The position numbers and the translations under genes are program-made. The notes below the pieces were generated by a model. It saw only the letters and a program-made list of their open reading frames with translations, was not told the DNA's origin and did not search any database. A DNA stretch of 16,129 bases. Source: an uncultured Coprococcus sp. Lineage in GTDB: Bacteria > Bacillota > Clostridia > Lachnospirales > Lachnospiraceae. Where the stretch lies: positions 1-16,129 of the forward strand of contig USSH01000025.1 of NCBI GenBank assembly GCA_900557435.1, in the 5' to 3' direction. The first letter of the stretch is position 1, and every line of letters begins with the position of its first letter. Positions 5,145 to 16,129 of this stretch are shown one piece after another.

Positions 5145-5213
5145 AGTGAAGGAAAATAATTAAATATATATGCATGGAGACATGTGATAATGCGCATTTG
5201 TGGAGGAACGGAC

Positions 5214-5876
5214 TTGAAAAAGATATTTGTGGTGGAAGATGATGAGAGCATTTGCAAGGAACTTGTGCAGATACTTGAGAATGAGGGCTATGAGGCTGAG
5301 AGTCTTAAGAGCTTTGACAATACAAAGGACGATATATTGAAAGCGGCACCGAATCTGGTGCTCATGGATATCAATATTCCGGGGATAAACGGTAGAAACC
5401 TTGTGAAGGAGATACGAAAGGAATCAGATGTGCCGATCATCATGGTCACAAGCAGGACTTCCGAGATGGATGAGGTGCTGTCCATGAGTTATGGCGCGGA
5501 TGATTATATAACAAAGCCATACAATCCAACGATACTTCTGCTTAGGATAGCGGCGGTGCTCAAGCGCATGGAGGGCAGCCAGAACACGGCATCATACAGA
5601 GATGCGGAGGTCAACTTCAGCAAGGGGACCATCAGCAAAGAAGATCAGGAGATGGTTCTCACCAAGAATGAGATGATCATATTCCAGCTGCTGCTTGCCA
5701 ACAGAGAAAAGATAGTGTCGAGGGATGAGATCATGACGGATCTGTGGGACAATGATGAGTTTGTAAATGACAATGCGCTCACGGTGAACATCAGCAGGCT
5801 CAGGGGGAAACTGGCGGATCTTGGATATGATGATGCCATAGAGACCAGGAAGAAGCAGGGATACAGGCTGGTGTGA
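5214..5876 (+). CDS. OmpR-family response regulator (BceR-like)
   Basis: This is the cytoplasmic transcription factor of a two-component system, predicted to activate the BceAB-type transporter downstream. I chose TTG 5214 because GGAGG at 5202-5206 sits 7 bases before it and the protein then begins with the canonical MKKIFVVEDDE; an in-frame ATG at 5184 would add ten unconserved residues. The receiver domain spans 1-115, with acidic residues E8, D9 and D10, phospho-acceptor D52 in LVLMDINIPG, T79, and K101 in the ITKPY loop. A winged-helix DNA-binding domain covers roughly 125-220, with a recognition-helix region NDNALTVNISRLRGKL and the wing KKQGYRL. Length (220 aa) matches the family. The kinase follows after 159 bases instead of the usual few, which is unusual for this pair. 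Confidence 0.93.
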   Translation: MKKIFVVEDDESICKELVQILENEGYEAESLKSFDNTKDDILKAAPNLVLMDINIPGINGRNLVKEIRKESDVPIIMVTSRTSEMDEVLSMSYGADDYITKPYNPTILLLRIAAVLKRMEGSQNTASYRDAEVNFSKGTISKEDQEMVLTKNEMIIFQLLLANREKIVSRDEIMTDLWDNDEFVNDNALTVNISRLRGKLADLGYDDAIETRKKQGYRLV

Positions 5877-6035
5877 CAGGTAGCATGATCGTGCATATGC
5901 TTTGTAGGTGAGAGATAAGACCATAGGGTGGTGCACATATTTGTAGTTGAACATATGGACTCAGCATAGCTTGATGACTGAATAATCGGATCGTGGCATA
6001 TCTTTTGAAAGCGTAGATGGGAGTAATAATTAGAC
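5877..6035 (+). other. 159-base gap between regulator and kinase, no gene seen
   Basis: Regulator and kinase genes of this type are normally adjacent or overlapping. Here 159 bases intervene with only trivially short frames, a weak inverted repeat near its start (AGCAT...ATGCT around 5883-5902) and no T-tract terminator. I see no clear promoter. Confidence 0.4.
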
Positions 6036-7052
6036 ATGAAATTTGGCAGGTATATAAAGGACAAACTTGGAATAATTGCAGGATATGCGGGATTTGTGAT
6101 ATTCACATATCTGCTCATGATGGCATTTCACTCACAGTTACAGATGAGAATTATGTTCGTTATCGTGGCTGTGATATTTGTCGTCTCAGTTATCGCCTGC
6201 GATTATCTGAGAAAATATAAGTTCTACAACAGTCTGGTCGGACATCTGGATGAACTGGATCAGAAGTATCTCATACTTGACACTTTGGACGAGCCTGACT
6301 TCTACGAGGGAAAGCTGGTGTATTCAGCTATGTACGACATCAACAAGTCCATGACTGAGAATGTGAGAAAGTACAGGGACAGCGTGGAGGATTTCAAGGA
6401 CTTTATAGAGATATGGGTTCACGAGATAAAGCTTCCGATAGCCAGTCTGGTGCTCATGTGCCACAACAACAGGGATGTGATCCCGAGAAAATACGAGGAA
6501 CAGGTCGCAAGGCTTGACGCGTATGCAGATCAGGTCCTCTACTATGTGAGGGCGGAGCATGCAGCGGCAGATTACAGATTTGCCGAGACAAATCTCAAGA
6601 GCGTTATCGGAAGGGTGGCTGTGAAGAACAAGGATATGCTGCTTGATGGTGACATAACGCTGAATGTTCATGATGTGGATGAATGTGTTGTGACGGATTC
6701 AAAATGGCTTGAGTTTATGGTAAATCAGATCGTGAGCAACAGCATTAAGTATATAGACCGAGGACAGGAAAAGACTATAGAGATGTGGGTTGAACCGGTG
6801 GGTGACGGCAAGGCTCTGCACATAAAGGACAATGGAATAGGTATACCACAGTCTGATATTCCACTTGTGTGCAAGAAATCATTTACCGGGGAAAATGGTC
6901 GGAAACATGCGAAATCAACAGGTATGGGTCTTTATATAATAGACAATCTGTGCAGGCAGCTGGGACATAAGCTGAATATAACGTCAAAGGTGGATGAATA
7001 CACAGATGTGAGTATAGTATTTGGATATAATGATATATACAAGATTGGATGA
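6036..7052 (+). CDS. Intramembrane-sensing histidine kinase (BceS-like)
   Basis: This 338-residue sensor kinase is the expected partner of the preceding regulator. It has two membrane helices (about 13-31 and 38-56) separated by only a few external residues, so it has no sensor domain of its own. Bce-type kinases of this design sense drug stress through the associated transporter. The phospho-accepting histidine is H129 in IWVHEIKLPIASL, the N-box is NQIVSNSIKYI (N230-N235), G1 is DNGIGI at 265-270, the K-F-T-G loop is KSFTG at 281-285, and G2 is STGMGLY at 294-300. Upstream in frame there is a stop at 6027-6029, so ATG 6036 is the first possible start; GGGAG lies 13 bases before it, a rather long spacing suggesting modest translation. 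Confidence 0.92.
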   Translation: MKFGRYIKDKLGIIAGYAGFVIFTYLLMMAFHSQLQMRIMFVIVAVIFVVSVIACDYLRKYKFYNSLVGHLDELDQKYLILDTLDEPDFYEGKLVYSAMYDINKSMTENVRKYRDSVEDFKDFIEIWVHEIKLPIASLVLMCHNNRDVIPRKYEEQVARLDAYADQVLYYVRAEHAAADYRFAETNLKSVIGRVAVKNKDMLLDGDITLNVHDVDECVVTDSKWLEFMVNQIVSNSIKYIDRGQEKTIEMWVEPVGDGKALHIKDNGIGIPQSDIPLVCKKSFTGENGRKHAKSTGMGLYIIDNLCRQLGHKLNITSKVDEYTDVSIVFGYNDIYKIG

Positions 7053-7082
7053 TATAAAAATGGTGTTTTGTGATAGTGGGAT

Positions 7083-7094
7083 ACCAGATCTGGT
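7083..7094. repeat. 12-bp perfect palindrome upstream of the BceAB-type genes
   Basis: ACCAGATCTGGT reads identically on both strands and is flanked by GGGA and TCCC, which can lengthen it into an imperfect hairpin. It lies between the kinase stop and the putative operator. There is no T-tract, so a classical terminator is unlikely. Role unknown. Confidence 0.4.
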
Positions 7095-7108
7095 GAGCGT
7101 CCCCAAGG

Positions 7109-7122
7109 TTACAGAATTGTAA
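7109..7122. promoter_or_regulatory. Putative BceR-type operator TTACA-N4-TGTAA
   Basis: The sequence TTACA GAAT TGTAA is a perfect dyad and matches the TNACA-N4-TGTAA consensus that I recall for BceR-like regulators. It lies 105 bases before the transporter ATPase start, in the intergenic region where the adjacent regulator would be expected to bind. A possible core promoter follows at AGGACA (7143-7148) with a 17-base spacer to TAAACT (7166-7171), but that is weak. Confidence 0.6.
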
Positions 7123-7227
7123 TGTTAGGTAATAATGAAAAAAGGACAATTGCTTTCAAAATGTGTAAACTGCAAATATGTTCAATGGTGAGAGCAGTAA
7201 TAAACAAACATTTGAGGAGGCATTTCA

Positions 7228-8019
7228 ATGGAAAATCCAATGGGAAATTCAATGGAAACAATATTAAAGATTGATAACATTGAGAAATATTATGGAAACA
7301 AATCCAATATGACAAAGGCCATAGATGGAATATCATTCGATGTGGAGGCAGGAGAGTTCGTCGCTATCATGGGTGCATCGGGAAGCGGTAAGACGACACT
7401 GCTTAACTGCGTTTCAACTATAGATAAGGTTAGCAGCGGTCACATCTATGTGGGTGGCAAGGATATCACAACCCTAAAAGGCAACAAGCTTAACGAGTTT
7501 AGGAGAGAGGAGCTTGGATTTATATTTCAGGATTTCAATCTTCTTGACACACTCACAGCGTATGAGAATGTCGCACTGGCACTCTCCATACAGAATGTTC
7601 CTGCAAAGCAGATAGATGCGAAGGTAAGGACCGTTGCAAAGGAGCTTGAGATCGAGAGTGTTCTGAAGAAGTATCCGTATCAGATGTCGGGCGGTCAGAA
7701 ACAGAGAGTAGCATCTGCAAGAGCAATCATCACTGATCCAAAGCTTGTGCTTGCAGATGAGCCCACGGGAGCACTCGATTCCAAGTCGGCAAAGCTGTTG
7801 CTTGAGAGACTTAAGCATCTGAATGAGGATCTCATGACAACGATACTTATGGTAACACACGATTCATTTACAGCCAGCTATGCAGGCAGGATTCTTTTCA
7901 TCAAGGATGGCAAGGTGTTCCACGAGCTCAGAAGAGGAGGAGATACCAGAAAAGAGTTCTTCAATAAGATCATAGATGTCGTGACACTGCTTGGAGGTGA
8001 TCTGAATGACGCTCTTTAA
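7228..8019 (+). CDS. Bce-type ABC transporter ATPase (BceA-like)
   Basis: This is the nucleotide-binding subunit of a peptide-resistance and sensing transporter. Its 263 residues hold Walker A GASGSGKTT at 49-57, Q-loop FQDFN at 100-104 followed by the LLDTLTAYENVALALS stretch characteristic of BceA-like ATPases, signature MSGGQKQR at 153-160, Walker B LVLADEPTGALD at 173-184, and the switch histidine H211 in MVTHD. The start has a strong GAGGAGG site 7 bases upstream. The end overlaps the permease start by 14 bases, and the permease ribosome site (GGAGGTGA at 7993-8000) lies inside this gene, so the subunits are translationally coupled. The last 25 residues after the core are family-typical. 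Likely induced through the operator at 7109-7122 by the regulator and kinase encoded just upstream. Confidence 0.95.
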   Translation: MENPMGNSMETILKIDNIEKYYGNKSNMTKAIDGISFDVEAGEFVAIMGASGSGKTTLLNCVSTIDKVSSGHIYVGGKDITTLKGNKLNEFRREELGFIFQDFNLLDTLTAYENVALALSIQNVPAKQIDAKVRTVAKELEIESVLKKYPYQMSGGQKQRVASARAIITDPKLVLADEPTGALDSKSAKLLLERLKHLNEDLMTTILMVTHDSFTASYAGRILFIKDGKVFHELRRGGDTRKEFFNKIIDVVTLLGGDLNDAL

Positions 8020-10096
8020 GCTTTCCGTATCAAATATGAAGAAGAGTATAAAGGACTATGCCATATATTTCTTCACTTTGGTACTCGGTGTTGCAATCTT
8101 CTATGTGTTCAATGTCATAGAGACGCAGACCGCCATGCTCCGGATATCGGCTGACACAAGACAGGTCGTGCAGCTCATGAGCAAGATGATCGCGGGTGTC
8201 AGTGTGTTCATCGCATTTGTGCTCGGATTCCTCATCATATATGCAAGCCGTTTCCTGATGAAGAGGCGCAACAAAGAATTTGGTCTGTACCTCATCCTTG
8301 GAATGGGAAAACGCAAGGTGTCCATAATGCTTTTCATCGAGACACTTATCATCGGACTTGTATCACTTGTGGTAGGACTTCTTGCCGGAATAGGAATCTC
8401 ACAGATAACAAGTGTACTTGTTGCAAACATGTTCGATGCAGATATGTCATCATACAGCTTTGTGTTCTCTGGCAGCGCATTTGCCAAGACTTGTCTGTAT
8501 TTTGCAATCATATATGTGGTGGTTATAATCTTCAACACATTTATCATCAGCAAATGTAAGCTCATCGACCTTTTCCAGAATGGAAGAAAATCTGAGAATG
8601 TCAAGATCAAAAATCCATGGGTATCAGTTATCGTGTTCCTGATATCAGTTGTATCACTTGGATATGCTTATCATGCGGTAATTACCGATATAAATGACAT
8701 GTACATGAACGATCTCTACAAGTGGATCGTGATCGGATGTGTTGCAACAGTGCTTTTCTTCTGGTCAGTATCCGGAATGCTCTTCAGGATCGTGTCATCC
8801 ATGAAGAATGTGTATTACAAGGGACTCAATTCATTTGTCGTGAGACAGATGAGCAGCCGTGTAAATACAAATGTACTTTCAATATCAGTCATCTGTCTGA
8901 TGCTTTTTGTGACAATATGCGTGCTTTCATCAGCGCTTGCAGTGAAGAATTCCTTAAATGAGGGCATTGCAAAGTACGCAAGAGCGGATGTGTGTATATC
9001 AAAGACCCAGAGCGGTGATTCAATCTATTATGATGAAGACGAGATGGGTAATGACAGCGAGACAAATGATCTTTTGAAGAAACTTGAAGTTACTGATGGA
9101 AAGAGCATAGAGGACGTATATAGTGAAAATAATATAGATCTCGGAACATACTTTTCAGATTATGTTGACGTACACACGTATACATGTCCTACACTTACTA
9201 TCAGAAACTATCTGGGAGATGAGGCTCTCATGGATTCTTTTGGAATAGATGTAAACGCTTGGTCTGGATTTGATGGAACGGAGGAGATCATATCACAGTC
9301 CGACTACAACAAGATTGCAAAGCTTTATGACAATGCTGAGCTCCAGCTTGACGATGACGAATATGCCATCCTGGCAAATTATAGAATATTCGTGAAGATT
9401 CGTGACGAGAGACTTCAGGAGGGCAAAGAGATAGAGGTATATGGCAACAAGCTTAAGCCGGTTATCTCATACTGTATAGACGGAGATATAGAGCTTGCCA
9501 CACAGCCGGTCAATACAGGCGTGTTTATCGTGCCGGATTCAGCCGTTGAAGGTGCACAGTTTGCAAAGGAATATTTCATCGGAAAGTATGCCGATCAGGA
9601 CAGGGATGTCATACAGGATAGTGATACGATCATAAGGAATGTATCAAAGAAGGATGAACTCGGCGGACTTATCACAGTAAATACTAAGGACAGCGTGAAA
9701 GCAGCCAGCGTGGGAGTAGGAGCCATCGCATCATTTATAGGCATGTATATCGGACTTATATTCCTTATATCTGGAGCAGCCATCCTTGCACTCAAGGAGC
9801 TCTCAGAGAGCACAGACAATATAGAGAGATATAAGATGCTCAGAAAGCTTGGCGTGGATCAGAACATGATCAACAAGGCTCTTTTCTCACAGATGGGACT
9901 ATTCTTCGTATTCCCACTTGCTCTCGCCATAGTCCATTCGATATTTGGAATGATGGTCAGCATAAAGATTCTTGATACTATGGGAGCGTATGATATAGCA
10001 GGTGCTATCGGAATCACAGCAGCTATCGTGGTGATCATATATGGTGGATATTTCCTTATAACGTATCTGTGCAGCAGGAAGATTATCAGTGAGTAA
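8006..10096 (+). CDS. Bce-type ABC transporter permease (BceB-like)
   Basis: This 696-residue permease has the signature plan of BceB: seven membrane helices in the first ~315 residues (near 18-38, 62-82, 110-133, 160-180, 205-222, 240-258 and 288-312), a large external domain of about 260 residues, then three helices in the last ~125 residues. The external domain is acidic (for example QLDDDEYA) and is the part thought to define ligand recognition in this family. FtsX-like coupling sequences are seen in NKEFGLYLILGMGKRKV (89-105) and in IERYKMLRKLGVDQNMI near the C-terminus. It should bind and dislodge cell-wall-targeting peptides such as bacitracin or lantibiotics from lipid II intermediates and signal to the two-membrane-helix kinase upstream. 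The exact drug cannot be read from sequence. Confidence 0.93.
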   Translation: MTLFKLSVSNMKKSIKDYAIYFFTLVLGVAIFYVFNVIETQTAMLRISADTRQVVQLMSKMIAGVSVFIAFVLGFLIIYASRFLMKRRNKEFGLYLILGMGKRKVSIMLFIETLIIGLVSLVVGLLAGIGISQITSVLVANMFDADMSSYSFVFSGSAFAKTCLYFAIIYVVVIIFNTFIISKCKLIDLFQNGRKSENVKIKNPWVSVIVFLISVVSLGYAYHAVITDINDMYMNDLYKWIVIGCVATVLFFWSVSGMLFRIVSSMKNVYYKGLNSFVVRQMSSRVNTNVLSISVICLMLFVTICVLSSALAVKNSLNEGIAKYARADVCISKTQSGDSIYYDEDEMGNDSETNDLLKKLEVTDGKSIEDVYSENNIDLGTYFSDYVDVHTYTCPTLTIRNYLGDEALMDSFGIDVNAWSGFDGTEEIISQSDYNKIAKLYDNAELQLDDDEYAILANYRIFVKIRDERLQEGKEIEVYGNKLKPVISYCIDGDIELATQPVNTGVFIVPDSAVEGAQFAKEYFIGKYADQDRDVIQDSDTIIRNVSKKDELGGLITVNTKDSVKAASVGVGAIASFIGMYIGLIFLISGAAILALKELSESTDNIERYKMLRKLGVDQNMINKALFSQMGLFFVFPLALAIVHSIFGMMVSIKILDTMGAYDIAGAIGITAAIVVIIYGGYFLITYLCSRKIISE

Positions 10097-11923: not shown

Positions 11924-11951
11924 TTGACACAGCAATAAACTCCTTTATAAT
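11924..11951 (+). promoter_or_regulatory. Consensus sigma-A promoter of the lipoprotein gene
   Basis: TTGACA at 11924-11929 and TATAAT at 11946-11951 are both perfect matches with a 16-base spacer. It is the best promoter in the window. The -10 box and the predicted start (about 11958) lie inside the palindrome described next, so a bound repressor would block it. A promoter this strong is expected where tight repression exists. Confidence 0.85.
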
Positions 11952-11988
11952 AAATATTACAAATGTAATATTTATTATAAAGGAGTTT
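11937..11988. promoter_or_regulatory. Putative BlaI/MecI operator within a 25-bp-arm perfect palindrome
   Basis: Two perfectly complementary 25-base arms (11937-11961 and 11964-11988) flank a 2-base centre. The core TATTACA AA TGTAATA has the TACA-N2-TGTA dyad recognised by BlaI/MecI repressors. It covers the -10 box and the ribosome site AAGGAG (11980-11985) of the lipoprotein gene. The genes for a BlaI-like repressor and BlaR1 sensor lie at the other end of this region. Confidence 0.75.
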
Positions 11989-11992
11989 TAAT

Positions 11993-14248
11993 ATGATGAA
12001 CTTATATTTTTTTATCTTGAAATACTACATATGTAATATATATAAGAAGTTATATTGTATGCTACTTTTGGTTGGAATAGCCATATTGTTATGTGGTTGT
12101 TCCAATAAAAATGCAGTGACAGACGCAGAGCGGACAGTTGTTGATTTTAGTATATCTGATGAAAATCAGTTTATTGCAGATTTGGATGATATATATTCAT
12201 CCTGTCAGGATATGAAACGCAAGACCGAGGAAGAAAAACTGAATCAGACTAGGACCGTAATAGAATCGATGGGAAGTAAGGGGTACATAGCTGTGGATGT
12301 GGCGAATCAGATCAATATGGCAAATGCAGAGAATGCTGAGATGTTTTTATCAGAGGTGGCTGAAAACAGAGATGTGGGATGTACCATACTGCAGGTCATG
12401 TATGATAAGTCTTTTGTAAGGTTTGATTTTAAATCAGGCGGTAATAATGTGATGATAACCAGGCGATTCTATGTGTGGGAGAATAACTGTTTTGTTGAGA
12501 AAAATGAAGAAAACTATAAGGCCTATACATGGAAATACACAGACGGATATCTATTTTTTGAGAGGTACAGGATGGGAGGATATGACGGAGATTCTGCGTA
12601 TACGGCATTACGAGTTGAGCCTCTGGATGAGAAGTTAAGGGTACTTAACAGAAAGTATATCAAGACGATTGGATATGATTCGAATAATTTATTTACCACA
12701 AACTGGGATGAATCAGATATGAACAGAATAAATTATTATGATATCTATGAGGCACTTTACAAAATGAAATATGGTATGTCCAGTCCATATTCGGACGAGG
12801 GGGTTACATATATGATAGAAGGAAAGTTATACGAGAAGGTGTTTCAGGAGTATTTGCCTGTGTCTACAGATGTACTTCAGCATGTCAATGTGTATGATGT
12901 GTCCAGACAAATGTATCAGTACAGAACGAGGGGGATGTTTGATCACAGTGTAACACCATTGGTTCCATTTCCAGAGGTAGTGGATGCTGAGTATAATGCT
13001 GACGGAACAATAACCCTCATAGTAAATGCTGTTTCGGAGAAGGATGAGAGTGGCAGATTATTTACACATAAAGTTACAATAAAGGAGAAAGAAAATGATG
13101 GATTTGAGTATGTGTCAAATGACGTTCTGACGATGAACAAAGAGGGGATATATTGGTATAGAGAAAGGCTTTCTGATAAAGAGTGGCAGGAGTACTACGG
13201 AGATAAGACCATCACAATAAATCAGAATGGAAATGTTGTTGATGATAGTCTGTTATCCGATGACGAAATGGAAAATGTTAAAGTAGATATAATGGGAATC
13301 TTACAGTCAGATGTCATAAGAAAGTTGTACGATGATGAAGATATTTCAGATAATAGTGATTTAATATATGACGCAGTTGATATTTTGGGAAGCAGTGGAC
13401 TGATATGTTTTTCTGATGATACCAATATGTATAATTATCAGCTATTTCAGTCTTTTTATAGAAATTATACAGAGGGTGGAGAGCGTGATTACATTTGCGT
13501 ATATAGGGTAAACAGGGATGCAAGCGTGACGGAGATGACATTTGCGTATGATGACAGCCGGATACAGATGATTTTCAACACAGCAAAATACGAGAATCGT
13601 GACTGGAAGTTTATAGCGTCTGGCATACGGGATTTAAAAGATATGAAACTTACAGAAAAAGGCTACTTTATATATACATACTCAAATATAATAGCTCATG
13701 GTGGGCTGAAGGAGTATTTCAGAGTCAGTCCGTTGACGGATGAATGCAGGAAACTGACAAGAAAATATGTGTATGGGCTTAGTTATGTGAATTACAATAT
13801 GCTTGTTATCGATTGGGATGAGTCAAATGCATCTGATATACTTGTGCCGTGTATGTTTGATGATTTATACAGACTGTACGCTGGTGAAAATCTGAAACCT
13901 GATGGTGGATGGATAGATGCAGACAAATATGAGTCTGTTATGTTGTCAATGTTCCCTGTCACTGTGACGGAGCTGAGGGATAAATGTGATTACAATCCAG
14001 AAAAAGATTCGTACAGATACCATGTCATCCTTGGAAAACAGTACCCACCATTCGGAGAGGTTGTGGACTATACCTACAACGATGATGGAACTGTTTCGCT
14101 TATTGTTGATGCGGTGTGGGCTGACAAGGGATCGGACATTGCATTTAGAAATACACTTACAGTAAAACCGGAAGATGATGGTACTTTCAAATATATGTCA
14201 AATCATATAGAGAAGATGGAATGTGACATACCGGTTTATTCTGACTGA
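11993..14248 (+). CDS. Large lipoprotein with internal duplication, unknown function (candidate BlaI/BlaR1 target)
   Basis: I do not recognise the family with confidence. The 751 residues begin with a charged n-region and a hydrophobic stretch (about 21-34) ending in the lipobox LCGC, so Cys36 should be lipidated and the rest lie outside the membrane. The mature part is a tandem duplication of roughly 330-350 residues offset by about 365: VEPLDEKLRVLNRKYIKTIG (208-227) resembles VSPLTDECRKLTRKYVYGLS (578-597), NWDESD (237-242) resembles DWDESN (607-612), and EVVDAEYNADGTITLIVNAV (328-347) resembles EVVDYTYNDDGTVSLIVDAV (689-708). It is acidic, rich in Tyr and Asp, and lacks the beta-lactamase SxxK/KTG motifs. 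AAGGAG lies 7 bases before ATG 11993; ATG 11996 is an alternative. The 3' end overlaps the convergent blaR1 stop by 13 bases. Context suggests a cell-wall-stress or beta-lactam-inducible surface protein. Confidence 0.85.
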   Translation: MMNLYFFILKYYICNIYKKLYCMLLLVGIAILLCGCSNKNAVTDAERTVVDFSISDENQFIADLDDIYSSCQDMKRKTEEEKLNQTRTVIESMGSKGYIAVDVANQINMANAENAEMFLSEVAENRDVGCTILQVMYDKSFVRFDFKSGGNNVMITRRFYVWENNCFVEKNEENYKAYTWKYTDGYLFFERYRMGGYDGDSAYTALRVEPLDEKLRVLNRKYIKTIGYDSNNLFTTNWDESDMNRINYYDIYEALYKMKYGMSSPYSDEGVTYMIEGKLYEKVFQEYLPVSTDVLQHVNVYDVSRQMYQYRTRGMFDHSVTPLVPFPEVVDAEYNADGTITLIVNAVSEKDESGRLFTHKVTIKEKENDGFEYVSNDVLTMNKEGIYWYRERLSDKEWQEYYGDKTITINQNGNVVDDSLLSDDEMENVKVDIMGILQSDVIRKLYDDEDISDNSDLIYDAVDILGSSGLICFSDDTNMYNYQLFQSFYRNYTEGGERDYICVYRVNRDASVTEMTFAYDDSRIQMIFNTAKYENRDWKFIASGIRDLKDMKLTEKGYFIYTYSNIIAHGGLKEYFRVSPLTDECRKLTRKYVYGLSYVNYNMLVIDWDESNASDILVPCMFDDLYRLYAGENLKPDGGWIDADKYESVMLSMFPVTVTELRDKCDYNPEKDSYRYHVILGKQYPPFGEVVDYTYNDDGTVSLIVDAVWADKGSDIAFRNTLTVKPEDDGTFKYMSNHIEKMECDIPVYSD

Positions 14249-16074
14249 TATCCATAGGCATATATTCCGAGATCACGCAGTATTGACAGAGAGATCTTCG
14301 ATGCGGAAAGTCCGTCCGCTGATAAAAACTGATTGTCATTTTCAGAAAGTGATATATTCGTGGCGAAAAAGTAATCATTATCATTAGATGTAATGAATCC
14401 GACGAACCAGCCGTTTATATTTATATCATCAACTCTGCCGGTACCTGTCTTGCCATACAGACTTTTTCCATCTGAGTTTGCAATAAACATGGACTCTATA
14501 ACTGTATCCACATTTGTCTTAGACAGTTTCCAATCATTTTTTTTCAGGTGACATAGCAGTTCTACCTGCTCTACCGGGGATATAGTCAGAGAGGATTCCA
14601 GCCAGTAACAGTTCTGAGCTGAATTGATATTCTGATTTCCATATTCAATAAGACTGAGAAAATTTTTCACATCTGTGTGGTCCATGGCTGCATCCAGATT
14701 GTCAAAATACCAGTTTACAGATCCGGTCATGGCAGATCGAAGTGTCTGGTCTGTGTTCCAGGCATCAAAAGGGTAAGTGCTCCCATCCCAGCGCATAAAT
14801 GAGTTGTCGGAAGTTATGATGCCATGTTCAAGAGCCATCACTGCGTCATATATTTTATATGTAGAATCCGGTGAAGTGCGGCATAGAGCTCTGTCCTGGT
14901 TATAGATAAACCATTTATCATTTCCTTTGTCGTACAGCACAAAACAGCCGTTGTAGCCAGAAAAGTAGCTGGATAGATCCAAGGATTCCAGATTCACTGG
15001 GGCAAAATCCTTGTATTGTGTATCATCCAGAGCATATACAGATAATGGCGCACTTACAGTCATCAGCAATATGATAATGAAAAATGCATATATACATTTT
15101 CGTTTTTCTCTCTTGGTGACAGGTTTGAAATCAACAATAAGCTGAAGTCTTATTTTAAGTAATTTTTTCCTGCTTTTGCTCTTGAATGATAGCGATGATG
15201 AACTACGGGATCTGCTTGCAGCCGCACGGAGGATGGTCTGCCCATACTTCGCGGCATAGTTTTGACCGAGGCTCTGCAATACATCATTGTCACATGCTTT
15301 TTCTCTGTCATGTCTTGCTGTATGTAATGTGTATATAACAACAGGATTGAACCAATACAGTATGCAGAATATACAGATAAACATATTCACGGCATTGTCT
15401 CTACGTTTAAAATGTTGTAGTTCATGTAACAAAATATGTCTCAGGTCGGTTATTGTGTAATCGGATATGCAGTCGTTGATTTGCCGTGGAATATATATAA
15501 CAGGGCGGAATACACCTACAATGACCGCTCCAGATAAAGCAGAGGAGTAATATAATTTCGGTTTGTATCTGCGCACATTGCAGAGCTCAAGGCATTCCGA
15601 ATATATATTCAATATGACAGTATCGTCGGTGACTGGAACAGCAGATTTTTTCAGCTTGTATAGTGATATGCCTGACACTATTAAACGGATAGAAAATATG
15701 CAAACTCCGGCAAGCCAGATAATAAAAAGGATCTTTGGATATATTGTTGATGTACTGTTTACAGATATAGCAAAGTCGTTCATCCAGTTCCCATTTGATG
15801 AAGGGCTGGTATTGATAGGCACAGGAGTAACTGTATTTGCGGCAGAAGTACCTCTGTGAAATAATGATCGTATGAAACCTATGGCCTGGAATATAAATGA
15901 ATTATTTACAGGGATAAATGGAATTACGAGAAGAAACAGCACAATATATATGGTGTTGTATCTGCCGTTACATGTTAGCTGTTTTCTGAACATAAATCGA
16001 ACAAATATCAGTAGTAGCAGAGAGAAACTTATGGATATATTGCTGATAAAAAAATGTGTGAAAAATTGAGTCAA
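14236..16074 (-). CDS. blaR1: BlaR1/MecR1-type beta-lactam sensor-transducer (M56 metalloprotease)
   Basis: This integral-membrane receptor is predicted to bind beta-lactams outside and then trigger an inside zinc protease that leads to loss of the BlaI repressor. In its 612 residues, membrane helices lie near 10-29, 41-55, 115-137 and 328-347. The zinc motif HELQH is at 217-221 with a third ligand, probably E258 in REKACD. The external penicillin-binding domain (about 360-610) has the class D motifs STYK at 404-407 (acylated Ser404, Lys407), SVN at 452-454 and KTG at 542-544. All catalytic residues are present, so it looks intact. The start is TTG 16074 with GGGAGG nine bases upstream (16084-16089) inside the blaI 3' end; the gap to the blaI stop is 3 bases, the usual operon arrangement. 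Length matches family members (about 585-601 aa). Confidence 0.92.
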   Translation of the reverse strand: MTQFFTHFFISNISISFSLLLLIFVRFMFRKQLTCNGRYNTIYIVLFLLVIPFIPVNNSFIFQAIGFIRSLFHRGTSAANTVTPVPINTSPSSNGNWMNDFAISVNSTSTIYPKILFIIWLAGVCIFSIRLIVSGISLYKLKKSAVPVTDDTVILNIYSECLELCNVRRYKPKLYYSSALSGAVIVGVFRPVIYIPRQINDCISDYTITDLRHILLHELQHFKRRDNAVNMFICIFCILYWFNPVVIYTLHTARHDREKACDNDVLQSLGQNYAAKYGQTILRAAASRSRSSSSLSFKSKSRKKLLKIRLQLIVDFKPVTKREKRKCIYAFFIIILLMTVSAPLSVYALDDTQYKDFAPVNLESLDLSSYFSGYNGCFVLYDKGNDKWFIYNQDRALCRTSPDSTYKIYDAVMALEHGIITSDNSFMRWDGSTYPFDAWNTDQTLRSAMTGSVNWYFDNLDAAMDHTDVKNFLSLIEYGNQNINSAQNCYWLESSLTISPVEQVELLCHLKKNDWKLSKTNVDTVIESMFIANSDGKSLYGKTGTGRVDDININGWFVGFITSNDNDYFFATNISLSENDNQFLSADGLSASKISLSILRDLGIYAYGYQSE

Positions 16075-16077
16075 GCC

Positions 16078-16129
16078 TTATTTCCTCCCGGTGCCTTTTA
16101 CATTTAATATGTCTTGAAGTTCCTTTATA
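16078..16129 (-). CDS. blaI: BlaI/MecI-family repressor, last 16 codons (cut by window edge)
   Basis: Reading the - strand from the right edge, a frame starting at 16128 gives IKELQDILNVKGTGRK followed by TAA at 16080-16078, three bases before the blaR1 start. The ending of a helical ELQDIL-type segment plus a short basic tail, and the position immediately upstream of blaR1, are what is expected for the C-terminus of a BlaI-type winged-helix repressor. The DNA-binding domain and any protease site lie outside the window, so the identification rests mostly on gene order. Confidence 0.7.
   Translation of the reverse strand, partial: IKELQDILNVKGTGRK

Follow-up and report, generated by a model that had tools for sequence, protein, structure and literature searches.

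A DUF6070 lipoprotein gene as a candidate output of BlaI/BlaR1 control in Coprococcus, and its pairing with PBP2a/PBP5-type proteins in relatives

We analyzed a 16,129-nucleotide stretch of DNA from an uncultured Coprococcus sp. (hereafter the window; contig USSH01000025.1 of assembly GCA_900557435.1), in which a gene for a putative lipoprotein lies convergent with blaR1 and blaI and carries BlaI-type operators. BlaI control of the lipoprotein gene is well supported by the sequence. The reading that we favor, and hold to be reasonably probable, is that of a beta-lactam-inducible wall-protection module whose lipoprotein helps a low-affinity penicillin-binding protein (PBP) or, as here, takes its place.

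The lipoprotein gene (11993–14248, forward strand) is preceded by a sigma-70-type promoter on the same strand, TTGACA-N16-TATAAT (11924–11951), read directly in the sequence: the –35 element occupies 11924–11929 and, 16 bases on, the –10 element occupies 11946–11951. The –10 box sits on one arm of a computed perfect inverted repeat (11937–11988), the two 25-nt arms of which (11937–11961 and 11964–11988) are 100% complementary and 2 nt apart; the opposite arm carries the ribosome site AAGGAG. The repeat is kept in two relatives, differing by one base in locus L001 and by two in L055, in both cases close to the centre. The centre itself reads ATTACAAATGTAAT and belongs to a BlaI-type operator, ATATTACAAATGTAATAT (11954–11971), that scores 20.7 bits in an 18-base operator matrix trained solely on 17 distinct blaI-promoter sites of relatives. 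The preliminary description had claimed this promoter, a –10 box inside a perfect palindrome and a BlaI/MecI dyad at the palindrome centre, and all three are borne out. It had overlooked a second operator, ATACTACATATGTAATAT (12022–12039; 20.1 bits in the same matrix), which lies within the coding start (the YYIC codons), 68 bp from the first, centre to centre, and is likewise present in L001 and L055.

RNA folding gives –34.8 kcal/mol, with the ribosome site buried, for a transcript read from upstream, and –6.5 kcal/mol for a transcript from position 11958, inside the palindrome. Judging from the folding, the ribosome site would be inaccessible in read-through RNA, whereas a transcript of the gene's own promoter, with a presumed start near 11958, would begin inside the palindrome and remain translatable. 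The palindrome may act in this way as a silencer of read-through translation, keeping the lipoprotein gene under its own repressed promoter.

Long inverted repeats are found around other BlaI-type sites as well. Of 92 distinct sites, 11 have at least 10 outer pairs (0.3 expected), a count that includes near-copies (the window and L001; L071 and L075), and six have at least 14 (none in the null); the flanking sequence differs between genomes. Sites centring long perfect repeats occur at 11937–11988 of the window, at 6266 and 6324 of L054, and at L067 11299, L078 6744 and L069 3084; some of the long repeats with a BlaI-type centre lie in 5' leaders and have a run of T or A next to them. Two or three BlaI-type sites occur together in certain blaI promoters (L078 13517–13633, L062 4690–4807, L072 15369–15456), and in L078 and L072 the opposite-strand neighbor of such a promoter is a Trans_reg_C gene.

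On the reverse strand, blaR1 (14236–16074) runs toward the lipoprotein gene, the two frames overlapping by 13 bases, and is preceded by the 3' end of blaI, its last 16 codons and stop (16078–16128, reverse strand; frame read by eye and compared with L001), the remainder lying beyond the window edge. Sensor and repressor genes are therefore placed next to the output gene and convergent with it, as initially described. BlaR1 joins an M56 metalloprotease domain (PF05569, 3.6e-44), with HELQH (HExxH) at residue 217, to a C-terminal penicillin-binding sensor domain with STYK, YGN and KTG (KTGT) at residues 404, 478 and 542. Residues 10–604 align with S. aureus BlaR1 (8exs), and the protein scores 558.7 bits against the NCBIfam model blaR1_generic (cut-off 400). 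As all these motifs are kept, BlaR1 should sense beta-lactams.

A complete blaI is found in the nearest relative (genome G001, locus L001; lipoprotein 94% identical), at 5145–5528, directly before blaR1. Its product matches the Penicillinase_R family at 125.6 bits (PF03965, cut-off 22.6), and the best of the named NCBIfam alleles, BlaI_of_BCL, gives 121.5 bits against a cut-off of 180; by sequence, it is a BlaI family member of no named allele. The preliminary description had pointed to the region before blaI as the place to look for a matching operator: in L001 the blaI promoter, TTGACA-N17-TATACT, is followed by ATTACAAATGTAGT, and the same dyad is found at both the blaI promoter and the target promoter in L001 and other loci. 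The G001 genome holds a single BlaI-family match, the one beside the lipoprotein gene and with the matching operator. A viral sequence collection yielded one operator pattern match and no relative of the window BlaR1.

Upstream in the window lie a two-component system and, after it, an ABC transporter that has a large permease (5184–10096). The nearest model for the kinase is SapS, below the SapS cut-off, and we take the arrangement to be like antimicrobial-peptide detoxification modules. Next come a ToxN-family protein (PF13958; 10315–10872) and a gene for a C_GCAxxG_C_C redox-type protein.

The putative lipoprotein has 751 residues and two DUF6070 domains (PF19546, 1e-155 in two stretches; 518.5 bits against a curated cut-off of 27), with a signal peptide and an LLCGC lipobox-like site read by eye. 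Pfam returns DUF6070 alone and NCBIfam, which includes resistance models, returns no match, in agreement with the early observation that the output lacks a beta-lactamase motif. The DUF6070 alignment has few invariant residues, with no recognised catalytic or penicillin-binding motif among them. The DUF6070 structure model is confident (pLDDT 91); a fold search with it gave no informative match, and a sequence search of the PDB gave no relative below E 0.17. In the protein search, a close homologue (P0017, 97% identical) represents 971 contigs, which makes the gene a common one among sequenced samples. Going by database names, Anaerostipes caccae and Faecalicatena orotica also have DUF6070 proteins.

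The lipoprotein had been called duplicated. It does contain two DUF6070 domains, yet the halves are old paralogues in different clades. In a tree of 65 DUF6070 domains, from which domains below 150 bits were left out, the first domain falls in one clade and the others outside it in 18 of the 19 multi-domain loci, the window included, the exception being G114 (L067). Domain 1 of the window protein belongs to the first-gene clade and domain 2 to the middle-gene clade, that of the second gene in three-gene operons, and G385 encodes one protein with three DUF6070 domains in the order first-middle-last. For these reasons the window gene appears to have arisen by fusion of two paralogues, which elsewhere are neighboring genes, and not by recent copying. 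The first, middle and last types occur either on genes of their own or joined, in this sequence, within one protein.

Some relatives place the lipoprotein beside a defined type of PBP. In 12 operons from 10 of 34 genomes, DUF6070 is accompanied by a PBP with the domains MecA_N + PBP_dimer + Transpeptidase; Pfam identified these domains in five of the 12 PBPs, and the others were found with a profile built from one of those five. SDN and KTGT are present in all 12 and ST(F/L)K in 11, the corresponding part of the twelfth (L057) falling outside the scanned stretch. For the two PBPs tested against NCBIfam the nearest models are Enterococcus PBP4(5) and PBP2a, with scores below both cut-offs (440.3 and 410.9 bits against 750 for PBP2a). 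The PBP is the first gene in 11 of the 12 shared operons, with operators ahead of it, DUF6070 being first in G389, and it is accompanied by one to three DUF6070 genes; in G445, G354, G259 and G424 the DUF6070 gene that follows the PBP has an extra operator at its start. Where regulators are present, they are convergent. By its gene context, sharing an operon with such a PBP puts the lipoprotein in a setting of resistance or wall repair. One protein, P0221 (629 aa; MecA_N + PBP_dimer + DUF6070), appeared to be a fusion of the two partners; its PBP part ends and is followed by the signal peptide of a DUF6070 protein, so that it reads as an internal deletion or assembly join, and we set it aside as evidence.

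The pairing has clear limits. The DUF6070 operon is without a PBP in 24 of the 34 genomes, and 18 of the 35 DUF6070 genomes examined for MecA_N (of 39) have no match at all, including the two closest to the window, G001 and G005. Among seven MecA_N loci lying away from DUF6070 in DUF6070 genomes, three have a site of at least 12 bits (G020, G425, G051) and four do not. In G001 and G005 the pattern ATNYTACRNNYGTARNAW matches non-coding sequence at blaI and DUF6070 only, with four other matches in coding frames. Neither genome gives a strong match to a class A beta-lactamase; each has three Beta-lactamase2 matches of at most 47 bits, presumably of the kind expected of carboxypeptidase-type PBPs.

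The same scan covered ten genomes with no PBP beside DUF6070, G001 and G005 included; it used the exact pattern and is not exhaustive, since some divergent sites, such as that of blaI in G114, are missed. Beyond the blaI and DUF6070 promoters it found 13 places, of which eight lie inside coding frames (L115, L116, L117, L123, L124, L127, L167, L168), two immediately ahead of another gene pair in G386, its second (L166), and three, unexplained, outside frames of at least 90 aa (L122, L133 and L165, from G460, G433 and G386). The two in L166 (1508–1754; contig C29 of G386) are ATNCTACANNTGTAGNAT-like sites, and the pair behind them appears by eye to be BlaI-like and M56-like. Separately, a small gene of 143–146 aa lies between DUF6070 and blaR1 in G030 and G428 (L062 7540–7977, L068 8593–9021) and has its own BlaI-type site; it has no Pfam match and is a possible further BlaI output.

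The absence of a MecA_N match from G001 and G005, and the confinement of their non-coding operator matches to blaI and DUF6070, would be expected if the lipoprotein were a direct binder, capturing either the drug or a wall fragment set free by the drug and independent of any PBP, and two or three tandem domains would suit such a protein. We consider this unlikely. DUF6070 conserves no recognised penicillin-binding motif, the PDB offers no sequence relative within the limit given above, and the PBP in the shared operon of 10 of the 34 genomes indicates wall synthesis, as in the partnership with a transpeptidase that we prefer.

Our sample for linkage comprised 42 DUF6070 operons in 34 genomes, five of the 39 genomes with a DUF6070 match having been left out (G226, G281, G399, G406, G415). 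Co-occurrence with blaI and blaR1, a check suggested in the preliminary description, turned out positive: for 21 of the 42 operons blaI/blaR1 is no more than 6 kb away, and each of these operons is convergent with it. Here G006 is counted as unlinked, though its contig ends inside an adjoining blaR1, and G005 as linked, though its blaR1 is interrupted. The interruption, near the 3' end of blaR1 (L055 7200–8990), is by a transposase-type gene that we take to be IS256-like; DUF6070 and both operators persist. Many of the sampled genomes are fragmented, and the loci of G259, G354 and G445 C86 are close copies of one another.

A site of at least 12 bits is present in 20 of the 21 linked operons and in eight of 17 others, a split that suggests trans-acting control in some genomes and none of this kind in the rest. 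In a sample of 392 genomes of the order, DUF6070 was found above the cut-off in 28, BlaR1 (E ≤ 1e-40) in 63 and MecA_N in 41. DUF6070 and BlaR1 coincide in 18 genomes against 4.5 expected (Fisher p 2e-9), DUF6070 and MecA_N in 13 against 2.9 (p 3e-7); both p-values are optimistic, because the tests ignore relatedness. Ten of the 28 DUF6070 genomes have no BlaR1 match and eight have neither BlaR1 nor MecA_N. Taken with the 10 of 38 assessable operons that have no site of 12 bits, these eight genomes mean that, as far as gene content tells, DUF6070 is not always tied to the Bla system.

The convergence with blaR1 in all 21 linked operons is what one would expect of a lipoprotein that belongs to the signalling arm, modulating the activity or recovery of BlaR1 and not itself protecting. 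We regard such a role as decidedly improbable, as the operator is still there in eight of the 17 unlinked operons (one of these eight, in G006, adjoining the contig-cut blaR1) and 45 of the 63 BlaR1 genomes of the order sample have no DUF6070 above the cut-off.

The BlaI-type operator recurs at DUF6070 promoters, which were scored outside the training set of the matrix; the matrix does not use L076, a locus with an incomplete blaI. Four of the 42 operons have too little upstream sequence, and 28 of the 38 assessable ones have a site of at least 12 bits, compared to three of 1520 shuffled regions. Across 40 loci (665,511 bases) there are 90 sites of at least 13 bits, 76 of them at the start of blaI, PBP or DUF6070 (the blaI ones being the training sites of the matrix) and 14 elsewhere. 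A first control gave such scores for 33 of 440 other ORFs. On recounting, 27 of these owe their site to a blaI, PBP or DUF6070 promoter, being the PBP itself or a gene in the shared region; two of the remaining six are the small gene of G030 and G428, and four are unexplained (two in L055, and two in L085 that share one site). Shuffled sequence took the place of this first control as the null. Alternatively, TACAnnTGTA could be an operator of the CopY copper type, or a palindrome arisen by chance, with the gene outside BlaI control. CopY-family repressors do share the TACANNTGTA core, and according to PMC7253601 these ten bases by themselves are insufficient for binding. We hold this reading to be very improbable: the matrix spans 18 bases, the site recurs as just described, the sole BlaI-family match of G001 adjoins the lipoprotein gene and has the same operator, and the L001 BlaI scores 99.5 against the CopY cut-off of 121.95, being likewise below the cut-offs of the named BlaI models.

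We propose that a beta-lactam would acylate BlaR1 outside the cell, that the metalloprotease domain would be activated and that BlaI would leave its operators, derepressing blaI-blaR1 as well as the DUF6070 lipoprotein gene that is convergent with it. Acylation, protease activation and the loss of BlaI from the operator have been described for staphylococcal BlaR1/BlaI (PMC9834060). The lipoprotein would then be secreted, anchored at the outer face of the membrane and influence wall synthesis without being an enzyme itself, most likely by binding or activating a transpeptidase. For a fair share of the relatives, that transpeptidase would be the PBP2a/PBP5-type PBP of the same BlaI-controlled operon. 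In the window lineage the lipoprotein may work with a housekeeping PBP, because the operon has no PBP and, blaI-blaR1 apart, no BlaI output other than the lipoprotein can be recognised. We infer BlaI binding, beta-lactam induction (from the intact BlaR1 sensor) and surface anchoring; the role as PBP partner is the least secure step. For B. licheniformis, PMC3305447 reports a peptidoglycan fragment as a proposed co-signal, which would fit a reading in terms of wall stress.

More broadly, and tentatively, DUF6070 lipoproteins could be a new class of inducible factor protecting gut commensals from beta-lactams. Their stackable surface domains would sustain the work of a low-affinity transpeptidase under drug attack or, where a lineage has no such PBP, that of a housekeeping PBP. 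DUF6070, a family of unknown function, gains a testable role and a connection with the best-known alarm for beta-lactams. Should the lipoprotein support a low-affinity PBP, mec-like resistance would have a second component, with a bearing on the survival of commensals during beta-lactam therapy. DUF6070 is named nowhere in the open-licence literature searched, and none of the titles listed there concerns BlaI/BlaR1 with such an output.

The closest known systems share parts of this arrangement. Like the bla divergon of S. aureus and B. licheniformis (blaZ/blaP-blaR1-blaI), as outlined in PMC3305447, it has a BlaR1 sensor-protease, a BlaI-family repressor and operators at both the repressor's own promoter and the target. 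It differs in its output, a DUF6070 lipoprotein and no beta-lactamase, and in gene order: the window genes are convergent, and the layout of the bla and mec divergons, with regulators divergent from the output, is seen neither in the window nor in any of the 21 linked operons. The BlaI regulons of Clostridium thermocellum, as described in PMC8457756, are similarly very small, include the repressor's own operon and have multiple ordered sites, whereas their motifs are GTCTAT/GACTAT repeats and those found here are TTACANNTGTAA. With mec (mecA-mecR1-mecI) and the Enterococcus PBP5-type PBPs 10 of the 34 genomes have in common the operon-borne MecA_N-PBP_dimer-Transpeptidase PBP, to which they add the DUF6070 genes, while the window has the lipoprotein without a PBP. 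Lipoproteins of the LpoA/LpoB type are PBP activators and Gram-negative outer-membrane proteins; the surface lipoprotein as PBP partner resembles them in idea. Set against all of these, the regulator pair is known, whereas its output appears to be new, as does the combination of this output with a MecA-type PBP.
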